Shown here piece after piece: positions 3,485 through 6,471 of a stretch of DNA of 48,861 nucleotides (positions are counted from its first letter, which is position 1; the number at the start of each line of letters is the position of its first letter). The DNA lies in the NCBI GenBank assembly GCA_021740045.1, contig JAIPAP010000011.1, forward strand, positions 1 to 48,861. The letters run 5' to 3'. A program made the position numbers and the translations under genes. The notes below the pieces were generated by a model. The model searched no databases and was not told the origin of the DNA. It saw nothing but the letters and a program-made list of their open reading frames with translations. The DNA comes from Bacteroidales bacterium. Lineage in GTDB: Bacteria; Bacteroidota; Bacteroidia; Bacteroidales; JAIPAP01.

Positions 3485-4498
3485 ATGTCGACGAAAAAGA
3501 ACAGCATGAACTACAAAGCAGACCCAACACGCTATGAGAAAATGCCCGTTCGAAGGTGTGGAAAAAGTGGATTGATATTGCCGGAGATCTCATTGGGCTT
3601 ATGGCACAACTTCGGGGGGATCGATGTATTTGAAAACGGACGGGAAATCATTCTGAAAGCCTTTGACTCAGGCATTTTTCATTTTGATCTGGCCAACAAT
3701 TACGGACCACCTCCCGGTTCGGCCGAGGAGAATTTCGGAAAAATCCTGAAGCAAGACCTGGCGCCCTACCGCGATGAGCTTGTTATTTCAACCAAAGCGG
3801 GATACCGCATGTGGGAAGGCCCTTTTGGTGAATGGGGCAGCCGGAAATACCTGGTGGCCAGCCTCGATCAATCCCTTAAGCGCATGGGACTGGATTATGT
3901 GGATATCTATTACTCCCACCGTTTTGACCCCGATACCGATATTGAAGAAACCCTTTACACCCTTCATACACTGGTTCAACAAGGAAAGGCTTTATATGTA
4001 GGGATTTCCTCCTATTCGGCCGAACAAACCCAACAAGCCGTTGCTTTCTTTAAGGAATTTAAAACTCCCTTTGTTATTCATCAGCCACGCTATAATATGT
4101 TCGACCGTTGGATTGAAAACGGTTTGGTGGAAGTGCTGGAGAAAAACAAGTTGGGAAGTATTGTTTTCTCTCCATTGGAGCAAGGCCTGTTAAGCACTAG
4201 ATATCTCGATGGAATCCCTGGTGATTCGAGGGCTGCCAGAGGAACCGGAAATTTCGATCAAACCGATATAAGCCAGGAAAAACTGGAAAAGATCAAGCAA
4301 CTGAATGAGTTGGCTCAAAACCGCGGACAGACTCTAGCCCAAATGGCACTGGCCTGGATACTCCGGCTACAAAGTATAACTTCAGTGTTAATTGGTCCAA
4401 GCCGTTTAAGCCAGATGGAAGAAAACATCAGGGCATTGGAAAACAAGCAGTTTTCACCGGAAGAACTGGACCGGATTGATGAGATAATGGCCAACTAA
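3485..4498 (+). CDS. YghZ-type aldo/keto reductase (L-glyceraldehyde 3-phosphate reductase)
   Basis: NADPH-dependent aldo/keto reductase closely resembling E. coli YghZ/Gpr, which reduces L-glyceraldehyde 3-phosphate and methylglyoxal. The AKR tetrad is readable: Asp and Tyr in HFDLANNYG, Lys in ISTKAGY, His in YYSHR. Family blocks such as PPPGSAEENFG, GSRKYLVASLDQSLKRMGL, ALYVGISSYS and TSVLIGPSR are intact. At 337 residues it is full length. The first ATG at 3485 adds seven residues; the ATG at 3506 (MNYKADPTRYEKM) matches the start of YghZ better and may be the real one. It is a single gene facing the trp attenuator region. Confidence 0.88.
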   Translation: MSTKKNSMNYKADPTRYEKMPVRRCGKSGLILPEISLGLWHNFGGIDVFENGREIILKAFDSGIFHFDLANNYGPPPGSAEENFGKILKQDLAPYRDELVISTKAGYRMWEGPFGEWGSRKYLVASLDQSLKRMGLDYVDIYYSHRFDPDTDIEETLYTLHTLVQQGKALYVGISSYSAEQTQQAVAFFKEFKTPFVIHQPRYNMFDRWIENGLVEVLEKNKLGSIVFSPLEQGLLSTRYLDGIPGDSRAARGTGNFDQTDISQEKLEKIKQLNELAQNRGQTLAQMALAWILRLQSITSVLIGPSRLSQMEENIRALENKQFSPEELDRIDEIMAN

Positions 4499-4562
4499 AA
4501 ATTATATCGACTATAAAACAATTACTTACAAGTTTTATTCAGATAATCCCAAACTTTAATTT

Positions 4563-4590
4563 TTGGAATCGATAATTCTATCTATTTTTG
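4563..4590 (+). promoter_or_regulatory. Promoter of the trp leader/trpB2 transcript
   Basis: TATTTTTG (4583-4590) matches TAnnTTTG exactly. TTG at 4563-4565 lies 17 nt upstream. Transcription would begin near 4597, about 14 nt before the leader-peptide ATG at 4611. Confidence 0.6.
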
Positions 4591-4610
4591 CGAATTGAAG
4601 AAAGAAAGAT

Positions 4611-4673
4611 ATGCATAAACTAATTCAAAATACAAACTGGTGGTGGCTAAGCTTATGGGAACGCTTCCTGTAA
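4611..4673 (+). CDS. Trp-rich leader peptide of trpB2 attenuator
   Basis: A 20-codon frame encodes MHKLIQNTNWWWLSLWERFL and stops at TAA (4671-4673). Four of the twenty codons are TGG: three in a row at 4638-4646 and one at 4656-4658. Tryptophan is the rarest amino acid, so this cluster is highly unlikely by chance. It lies behind a consensus promoter and before a rho-independent terminator and trpB2. This is the design of a ribosome-mediated tryptophan attenuator, where stalling at the Trp codons reports shortage of charged tRNA-Trp. A purine-rich stretch (AAGAAAGAAAGAT) precedes the ATG and could help initiation. The peptide probably has no function beyond being translated. Confidence 0.9.
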   Translation: MHKLIQNTNWWWLSLWERFL

Positions 4674-4734
4674 GAAGGCCATAGCTATGTTTAAAATATA
4701 GAAAAGGGCTTCCGCACAGGAAGCCCTTTTTTTT
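4651..4734 (+). promoter_or_regulatory. Tryptophan transcription attenuator (regions 1-4)
   Basis: Alternative pairings can be drawn by hand. Region 1 (4650-4658, AGCTTATGG, overlapping the fourth Trp codon) pairs with region 2 (4679-4686, CCATAGCT), with one bulged T. Region 2 (4674-4680, GAAGGCC) pairs instead with region 3 (4706-4712, GGGCTTC), with one G-G mismatch; this is the antiterminator. Region 3 (4706-4713, GGGCTTCC) pairs with region 4 (4719-4726, GGAAGCCC) to form the terminator. A ribosome stalled on the Trp codons covers region 1 and favours 2:3 and read-through. A ribosome reaching the stop at 4671 covers region 2 and favours 3:4 and termination. Confidence 0.8.
4702..4734 (+). 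terminator. Leader terminator upstream of trpB2
   Basis: A perfect 8-bp stem GGGCTTCC/GGAAGCCC with a 5-nt loop is followed by eight T residues. Four A residues before the stem can pair with the first Ts. It ends 35 nt before the trpB2 start codon and has no gene of its own to terminate except the leader. Confidence 0.92.
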
Positions 4735-4769
4735 ATGCACAAATTTTTAATGTCTAATAAAAACTAAAA

Positions 4770-6137
4770 ATGATGAAACAAAAGAAAATTGTACTAAACG
4801 AAGACCAAATGCCGACGCATTATTACAACATTGTAGCCGACATGCCCAACAAGCCACTGCCACCACTAAACCCGGAAACAATGGATCCCATTGGCCCCGA
4901 GGCGCTGTCCGGTATTTTTCCAATGGAATTGATACAACAGGAGGTTACGACCGAAAGGTATGTGGAGATCCCGGAAGAAGTAAGGGACATCTACAGGAAA
5001 TGGAGGCCCACGCCCATGTACCGGGCATACGAACTGGAAAAGGCCCTGGATACTCCGGCCAAAATTTACTACAAATATGAAGGAGTAAGTCCATCCGGTT
5101 CACATAAACCGAACACAGCAGTAGCTCAGGCATACTACAACAAGCAAGCCGGTATTAAAAAGATTACCACCGAAACCGGCGCGGGACAATGGGGCTCGGC
5201 CTTAAGCTTTGCCTGTTCGCAATTCGGGATGGAATGCGAAGTGTATATGGTCGGATTAAGCTATCACCACAAACCCTATCGCAAGATCATGATGAACACC
5301 TATGGCGCCGATGTTTATGCATCGCCATCGAACCGTACCAATGCCGGCCGGAAGGTACTGGCAGAAAACCCCGATTCACCGGGTAGTCTTGGCATTGCCA
5401 TTTCGGAAGCTATTGAAATGGCAACAAAGGATGAAAAAACTAATTATGCGCTGGGAAGCGTGCTTAACCACGTATTAATGCATCAAACCATCATTGGTGA
5501 AGAATCTATAAAACAAATGGAAATAGCAGGTGATATGCCTGATGTAATTGTTGGTCCTTTTGGTGGAGGCTCCAATTTTGCCGGGATCAGTTTTCCATTT
5601 ATTCGTAAAAACATCACCGAGGGAACCAATATCCGGTGCATTGCCAGTGAGCCGTCATCCTGTCCTAAATTAACCCGCGGGCAATTCCGCTATGACTTTG
5701 GCGATACAGCAGGTACAACACCACTGTTACCCATGTATACATTAGGTCATGAATTTATCCCAGCTCCCGTGCATGCCGGAGGATTGCGTTATCATGGTGC
5801 CGGTGTGGTTGTGAGCCAATTACTAAAAGACAAGCTCATAGAAGCAGCAGCCCACGATCAGGTGGAAGCCTTTGAGGCAGGTGTGCTGTTTGCTAAAACC
5901 GAAGGCATATTACCTGCCCCGGAAACCAATCATGCTATAGCCACAGCTATTCGTGAGGCTAACCGTTGTAAGGAGGAAGGAAAATCAGAAACCATCCTGA
6001 TCCATCTATGCGGACATGGTTATTTTGACCTGAAGGCTTATGAAGATTTCCACGCCGGCAAACTCACACGCCATGAGATCACCGAAGAGGAAATCAAAGC
6101 CTCATTGGATAAACTGAATATCCCCGAATTGGTATGA
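4770..6137 (+). CDS. trpB2: Tryptophan synthase beta-like protein TrpB2
   Basis: PLP-dependent enzyme of the TrpB2 branch, which makes tryptophan from indole and serine (or acts in indole salvage) without a tight TrpA partner. The 455-residue length and long N-terminal extension (TMDPIGPEALSGIFP) are typical of TrpB2 rather than TrpB1. The PLP lysine is Lys113 in SGSHKPNTA. TETGAGQWG, VGPFGGGSNFAG and the C-terminal LIHLCGHGYFDL are conserved blocks. Two ATGs (4770, 4773) are possible starts. No other trp gene is nearby, so the gene is a stand-alone transcription unit. The attenuator upstream ties its expression to tryptophan supply and supports a real role in Trp formation. Confidence 0.93.
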   Translation: MMKQKKIVLNEDQMPTHYYNIVADMPNKPLPPLNPETMDPIGPEALSGIFPMELIQQEVTTERYVEIPEEVRDIYRKWRPTPMYRAYELEKALDTPAKIYYKYEGVSPSGSHKPNTAVAQAYYNKQAGIKKITTETGAGQWGSALSFACSQFGMECEVYMVGLSYHHKPYRKIMMNTYGADVYASPSNRTNAGRKVLAENPDSPGSLGIAISEAIEMATKDEKTNYALGSVLNHVLMHQTIIGEESIKQMEIAGDMPDVIVGPFGGGSNFAGISFPFIRKNITEGTNIRCIASEPSSCPKLTRGQFRYDFGDTAGTTPLLPMYTLGHEFIPAPVHAGGLRYHGAGVVVSQLLKDKLIEAAAHDQVEAFEAGVLFAKTEGILPAPETNHAIATAIREANRCKEEGKSETILIHLCGHGYFDLKAYEDFHAGKLTRHEITEEEIKASLDKLNIPELV

Positions 6138-6169
6138 AATCCAATACGAGTTGGTTGGGTTAGTAATTG

Positions 6170-6205
6170 AAAAGCCGGAACTTCTTTACAGATTTTCCGG
6201 CTTTT
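6170..6205 (+). terminator. trpB2 terminator
   Basis: AAAAGCCGGAA (6170-6180) and TTCCGGCTTTT (6195-6205) form an 11-bp stem with a 14-nt loop, ending in a T-rich tail (CTTTTATTTT). It lies 33 nt after the trpB2 stop. Confidence 0.85.
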
Positions 6206-6471
6206 ATTTTGGGAGCACTTCGAAATAGCAGGGAGCATGGTGCATGGAGTTCGATGATGTAAGCAAGAGCTAAGAGACCGAAACCCAAATTGAGTGATTC
6301 TCGCTAACCGCCTGCCCCGATCCCAAAAACTTTCGGGACGGGGATTAAGAAAATGTAAGAAACGCAATCCCCAATTTTAAACTTTAAATGCCGAAAAAAC
6401 AGAAATCTTTGATTTCGTATTTTTTCGTGCATCCTCGAAAATTTTAAATTTTCGGGACTTAGAACCGAATA
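6206..6471. other. Non-coding convergent gap with three hairpins
   Basis: No credible gene lies between trpB2 and the end of cysE. Three inverted repeats are visible: CCCCG(A)TCCC...GGGACGGGG at 6315-6343; a long imperfect palindrome at 6392-6427 (CGAAAAAA and GAAATC arms, with T-runs in both directions); and CGAAAATTT-T-AAATTTTCG at 6436-6454. The middle one is the best candidate for the cysE terminator. Confidence 0.5.

Follow-up and report, generated by a model that had tools for sequence, protein, structure and literature searches.

The stand-alone trpB2 gene of a Bacteroidales bacterium is preceded by the parts of a ribosome-mediated tryptophan attenuator. The gene lies on contig JAIPAP010000011.1, which was analysed as a window of 48,861 nucleotides. 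An attenuator that responds to charged tRNA-Trp, acts on a lone trpB2 and serves the salvage of indole to tryptophan is very probably the explanation of the arrangement. The parts of the element, their recurrence in relatives, the sequestration of the terminator upon stalling (in folding models), the absence of the de novo genes and the presence of a tryptophanase gene are all seen by sequence comparison.

Architecture of the trpB2 leader

The region contains the following features.

4562-4590, + strand: Bacteroidota-type promoter, TTTG-n17-TATTTTTG (-33 and -7 elements), from a pattern match
4611-4673, + strand: leader peptide MHKLIQNTNWWWLSLWERFL, 20 codons, ATG at 4611 and TAA at 4671-4673
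4634-4692, + strand: region 1:2, protector structure that encloses the Trp codons, from folds
4663-4680, + strand: region 2, putative antiterminator strand, from the minimum-energy fold with a ribosome placed at the third Trp codon
4701-4734, + strand: intrinsic terminator (regions 3:4), 13-bp hairpin with a 5-nt loop, from folds and compensatory changes relative to genome G013
4770-6137, + strand: trpB2, stand-alone tryptophan synthase beta chain 2, 455 aa, from NF009057 and TIGR01415
6170-6205, + strand: terminator-like hairpin 3' of trpB2, from the fold of 6138-6215 (-25.4 kcal/mol)

The first-pass annotation had described a promoter, a 20-codon open reading frame with four Trp codons, three of them adjacent, the mutually exclusive pairings 1:2, 2:3 and 3:4, and an intrinsic terminator with eight Ts, and each of these parts is present. 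The promoter has the form TTTG-n17-TATTTTTG, which we take to be the -33/-7 pattern of Bacteroidota. The pattern alone is within chance in the window (3 matches, 1.9 expected). Its -7 element, TAnnTTTG, precedes 26 of the 43 comparable leaders of relatives described below, where 3.7 are expected, and is combined with a TTG -33 element in 18 (0.4 expected). The Trp codons of the leader are codons 10, 11 and 12 (4638-4646) and codon 16 (4656-4658), and no similar run of TGG appeared in 2000 shuffles of the leader. The 1:2 pairing is clear and spans eight of the nine bases of the triple Trp codons, with a leader fold z-score of -2.15. The 3:4 pairing, equally clear, joins 4701-4713 to 4719-4731 in 13 bp that include one G-U pair, and is accompanied by the run of eight Ts at 4727-4734. 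The fold of leader and terminator together (4597-4740), proposed as a check by the same annotation, yields -50.6 kcal/mol and a z-score of -6.7, a value equalled by none of 200 shuffles.

An aldo-keto reductase gene ends upstream of the leader on the same strand, at 4498, and cysE-cysK lie nearby on the opposite strand; no trp genes were found among the neighbours of trpB2. The terminator-like hairpin that follows the gene is consistent with a monocistronic unit.

The encoded protein scores 726.8 bits against NF009057 (curated cut-off 366) and 638.5 bits against TIGR01415 (curated cut-off 518.85), and its closest PDB chains, 6hul, 4qys and 6hte, are of the TrpB2 type. The active-site motifs GSHK, TETGAGQW and GGGSN are present in alignment columns that are largely invariant, and align with those of 6hul and 4qys. 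In one related genome trpB2 carries three in-frame stops (G116:C175:79529-80878) and is probably a decayed copy.

Alternative pairings and modelled ribosome stalling

In the proposed mechanism, RNA polymerase would start just after position 4590 and a ribosome would translate the 20-codon leader. When tryptophan is available, the ribosome at the stop codon would cover region 2, which would allow the 3:4 terminator to form and the transcript to end near 4734. When tryptophan is scarce, the ribosome would stall at codons 10-12 and cover region 1. Region 2 would then pair with the 5' arm of the terminator, as well as with some of the loop and 3' arm, letting transcription continue into trpB2. The enzyme would finally form tryptophan by condensing indole with either serine or O-phosphoserine; for TrpB2 enzymes, O-phosphoserine is the reported substrate (Busch et al. 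2014, cited in PMC11917138). We infer that termination and a response to tryptophan actually take place and that indole is the substrate.

The 2:3 pairing is modest in the window. It joins GAAG.CC (4674-4680) to GG.CUUC (4706-4712) in the terminator 5' arm through six pairs with one mismatch, shares bases with both 1:2 and 3:4, and has a duplex energy no better than that of shuffles (p = 0.58). A second antiterminator element of 9 bp, 4663-4671 with 4716-4724, adds to it when the ribosome is at the third Trp codon. In the model of the unstalled or untranslated RNA, the Trp codons are enclosed in the 1:2 structure and the terminator can form freely. Placing a ribosome at the third Trp codon gives a minimum-energy fold that ties up both terminator arms (4706-4712 and 4716-4724). 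For a ribosome at either of the first two Trp codons, the terminator is still the minimum-energy fold at equilibrium, and the 2:3 pairing forms before the terminator 3' arm is made. Because the terminator wins at these two codons, antitermination has to depend on kinetics or on a stall at the third codon. Opening the terminator 5' arm costs 2.5 kcal/mol in the unstalled RNA, 9.3 kcal/mol in the stalled RNA and 1.3 kcal/mol with the ribosome at the stop codon, a stall effect that is borderline in the window (p = 0.05-0.15). The predicted antiterminator pairing of the window is not above chance by itself, and its backing comes from relatives.

Recurrence upstream of trpB2 in relatives

The comparison of trpB2 upstream regions that had been suggested at the outset covered 144 regions, drawn from 51 families in the order to which the window belongs. 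A strict rule was applied, under which a single codon has to occur three or more times within five codons, in an open reading frame 8-50 codons long with a terminator after it. TGG satisfies it in 43 of the 144 regions and in 25 of the 51 families, so that about a third of the related trpB2-bearing genomes have such an arrangement; the other 101 regions lack one by this rule. The next-best codon, TTT, does so in four regions, no other codon exceeds that number, and dinucleotide shuffles give 0.0 of 144. The combination of Trp codons and terminator is thus not a product of chance, and the claim of a ribosome-mediated Trp attenuator before trpB2 in Bacteroidota gains support from its recurrence. 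Relative to the nearest relative, G013, whose TrpB2 is 81% identical, two compensatory pairs are found in the terminator and one in the leader. The leader peptides of relatives are conserved in the Trp run only.

Across the 43 leaders the mean fold z-score is -2.29, and in most of them a modelled stall at the Trp codons leads the upstream RNA to sequester the terminator 5' arm. Stalling adds a mean of 4.4 kcal/mol to the opening of this arm at the best stall site, 4.0 kcal/mol when the last clustered Trp codon is taken as a fixed stall site (Wilcoxon p = 2e-5 against shuffled region 2) and 3.1 kcal/mol when the first is taken (p = 0.01). These and the other p-values taken over the 43 leaders are optimistic, as neighbouring species are not independent samples. 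Region 2 shows little signal against the terminator 5' arm alone (mean z = -0.37 in the 43 leaders). Against the arm and loop together, the duplex gives a mean z of -1.53 (Wilcoxon p = 4e-8), with 14 of the 43 leaders at p <= 0.05 where 2.2 are expected, values to be read in the light of this test having been devised after the arm-only result. Examples of such complementarity are found in G302, G040, G105 and G193.

Two metagenome-assembled genomes outside Bacteroidota carry similar arrangements before trpB2, a Smithella (L100) with a leader FNNNNWWWQ and a terminator, and a Caldithrix (L097) with a leader NWRWWWC and a terminator. The window's own genome also contains two tandem histidine attenuators before hisG (L033:7028-6660, minus strand; G000:C68), with leaders MRTIKAHTALHHHHHHLNGMEK and MKNMKLHTVHHLHHHHWAGIPLWKCCSMP and a terminator after each.

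Tryptophan genes and the role of TrpB2

No match to trpE, trpD, IGPS/trpC, trpA or trpB1 was found in the genome of the window (161 contigs, 97% complete). The searches for trpE (by the TrpE N-terminal domain), trpA, trpD and IGPS/trpC each matched in 14 of 14 control genomes, and the trpB1 search, by similarity to TrpB2, finds TrpB1 in many relatives. The genome thus shows no pathway, in an assembly of 161 contigs that could have missed a trp cluster. It does contain a tryptophanase gene, with 900 bits against NF053783 (cut-off 750). TnaA-like genes are present in 20 of the 22 trpD-less genomes with a trpB2 attenuator, the window's included, all but the window's being scored against the E. 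coli-type model only and falling below its cut-off. A search for a leader of the TnaC kind before tnaA showed no conserved one. In one genome (L274, G210) the open reading frame MTIETKWFNRLISKQNN, upstream of the tnaA-like gene, is similar to the KWFN stretch of E. coli TnaC, a similarity found in none of the other genomes examined.

As the de novo genes are absent and tryptophanase is present, making tryptophan here means salvaging indole, whose source has to be either external or the tryptophanase of the cell itself. The first-pass annotation had concluded that this TrpB2 is a Trp-regulated synthase and not a scavenger. The regulation stands, while the denial of scavenging does not, in view of the missing trpE, D, C, A and B1 and of the tryptophanase. 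On the gene content, the TrpB2 of the window is a predicted Trp-regulated indole scavenger and the sole tryptophan route visible in the genome, and the right contrast is between a regulated main salvage route and an unregulated side activity. Control by tRNA-Trp may avoid a futile cycle with tryptophanase, since synthesis would be off when tryptophan is plentiful and degraded. Indole salvage by TrpB2 has been reported for Thermococcus kodakarensis (as cited in PMC11085991).

A link between the attenuator and the loss of trpD was considered and set aside as weak: attenuators occur in 22 of the 53 genomes without trpD and in 21 of the 91 others (p = 0.024, uncorrected for relatedness), and a looser test gives p = 0.15.

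Other accounts were weighed as well. TrpB2 might work within de novo synthesis under ordinary trp regulation, with the de novo genes missed in the assembly. The window assembly is indeed incomplete, 21 of the 43 attenuator-bearing relatives have trpD, and trpB2 adjoins trpD in three genomes of one family (f20). We consider this unlikely, as five separate genes would have to be missing at 97% completeness, G013 (79% complete) is also without trpA and trpD, and 53 of the 144 trpB2 genomes lack trpD. The weak 2:3 pairing of the window copy would also suit a non-classical route, through control of translation, mRNA stability or TnaC-like sensing of free tryptophan by a nascent peptide. Such a route is quite improbable given the strong intrinsic terminator and T run of all 43 leaders (a condition of the strict rule) and the peptides that are unconserved outside the Trp run, and because runs of consecutive Trp codons in known attenuators sense tRNA charging.

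The hairpin might also be the mere terminator of the aldo-keto reductase gene, whose end at 4498 lies upstream in the same orientation, with the Trp-rich reading frame due to chance. A promoter lies in between, the Trp run and terminator are common to 43 relatives where runs of other codons are not, and the modelled RNA refolds in a stall-dependent manner, so that we give this reading almost no weight. An attenuator of trpB2 serving indole salvage remains the preferred explanation.

Extended to the order, stand-alone trpB2 in Bacteroidales may represent a widespread, tRNA-Trp-controlled recapture of indole, an idea that we favour with some reserve. In genomes without the de novo pathway and with tryptophanase, the attenuator would toggle between the breakdown of tryptophan and its rebuilding from the cell's own or the community's indole. 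The role of trpB2 outside trp operons is described as not yet identified in PMC1854888, and indole recapture, if true, would give this non-operon group, TrpB2_o, a regulated physiological role. Regulation by the supply of tryptophan would serve as a separate line of evidence that the job of trpB2 is to make tryptophan. The presence of the attenuator in genomes with tryptophanase but without the remaining pathway genes leads to the prediction that many seeming Trp-auxotroph Bacteroidales should grow on indole. Since gut bacteria form indole from tryptophan (PMC11085991), the finding bears on who consumes it.

Comparison with known systems

Stand-alone trpB2 genes outside trp operons are likewise represented by TrpB2_o (PMC1854888) and by T. 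kodakarensis TrpB2 (through PMC11085991). In these cases, as far as the available text of the sources goes, trpB1 is usually also present, unlike in the window's genome, and no tRNA-Trp-responsive control is described. A Trp attenuator before a gene called trpB2 is likewise found in Corynebacterium diphtheriae, which has attenuators before trpB1EDGC and 'trpB2A' (PMC1262725). There trpB2 belongs to the trpB2A biosynthetic operon, whereas in the window it stands alone and no trpA was found. No description of Trp attenuation of a stand-alone trpB2 was found in the main texts of the open-access literature, and Rfam or a supplement may have mentioned it earlier.

The element resembles E. coli trpL in its leader peptide, adjacent Trp codons, predicted alternative hairpins and intrinsic terminator, a likeness shown for the logic of the parts and not for the sequence. 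It differs from trpL in that the target is a single gene, trpB2, whose genome shows no such pathway, and in that, in many relatives, the terminator loop takes part in the antiterminator as well.

Trp attenuators are not new in Bacteroidota. The Bacteroid-trp RNA (Rfam RF01692) was described in 2010 by Weinberg et al. (PMC2864571) and has been reported upstream of the Flavobacterium psychrophilum trp operon (PMC6414381). Bacteroid-trp was found in 57 of 392 genomes of the order, 54 of which have trpD, and most of the listed places share a contig with trpD and lie no more than a few kilobases from it. One listed case (G066) lies directly before trpB2, and three trpD-bearing genomes (G122, G212 and G302) each have a Bacteroid-trp match and a separate trpB2 attenuator. 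In three f20 genomes (G132, G276 and G330; loci L153, L147 and L159) trpB2 is immediately beside trpD, with a Bacteroid-trp match a few kilobases upstream on the same contigs, so TrpB2 seems to have become part of the trp operon there.

At gathering cut-offs Rfam yields nothing in the window, and SraB, Phe_leader and other sub-threshold matches were taken as chance. The RF01692 model aligns end to end with 4591-4713 of the window at 34.7 bits. As this lies below the gathering cut-off of 49, the element is not filed as a member. The trpB2 leader of G066 scores 40.8 bits, also below the cut-off, and RF01692 had no match at E <= 0.5 in the other 11 scanned trpB2 leader loci. Unlike RF01692, which is mostly beside de novo trp genes, the window element does not precede a trp operon. 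Like RF01692, it occurs in Bacteroidota, has adjacent Trp codons in the stem of a short open reading frame with the start of a terminator at its 3' end, and precedes a tryptophan gene, here trpB2. The element of the window probably works like RF01692 and is probably related to it.
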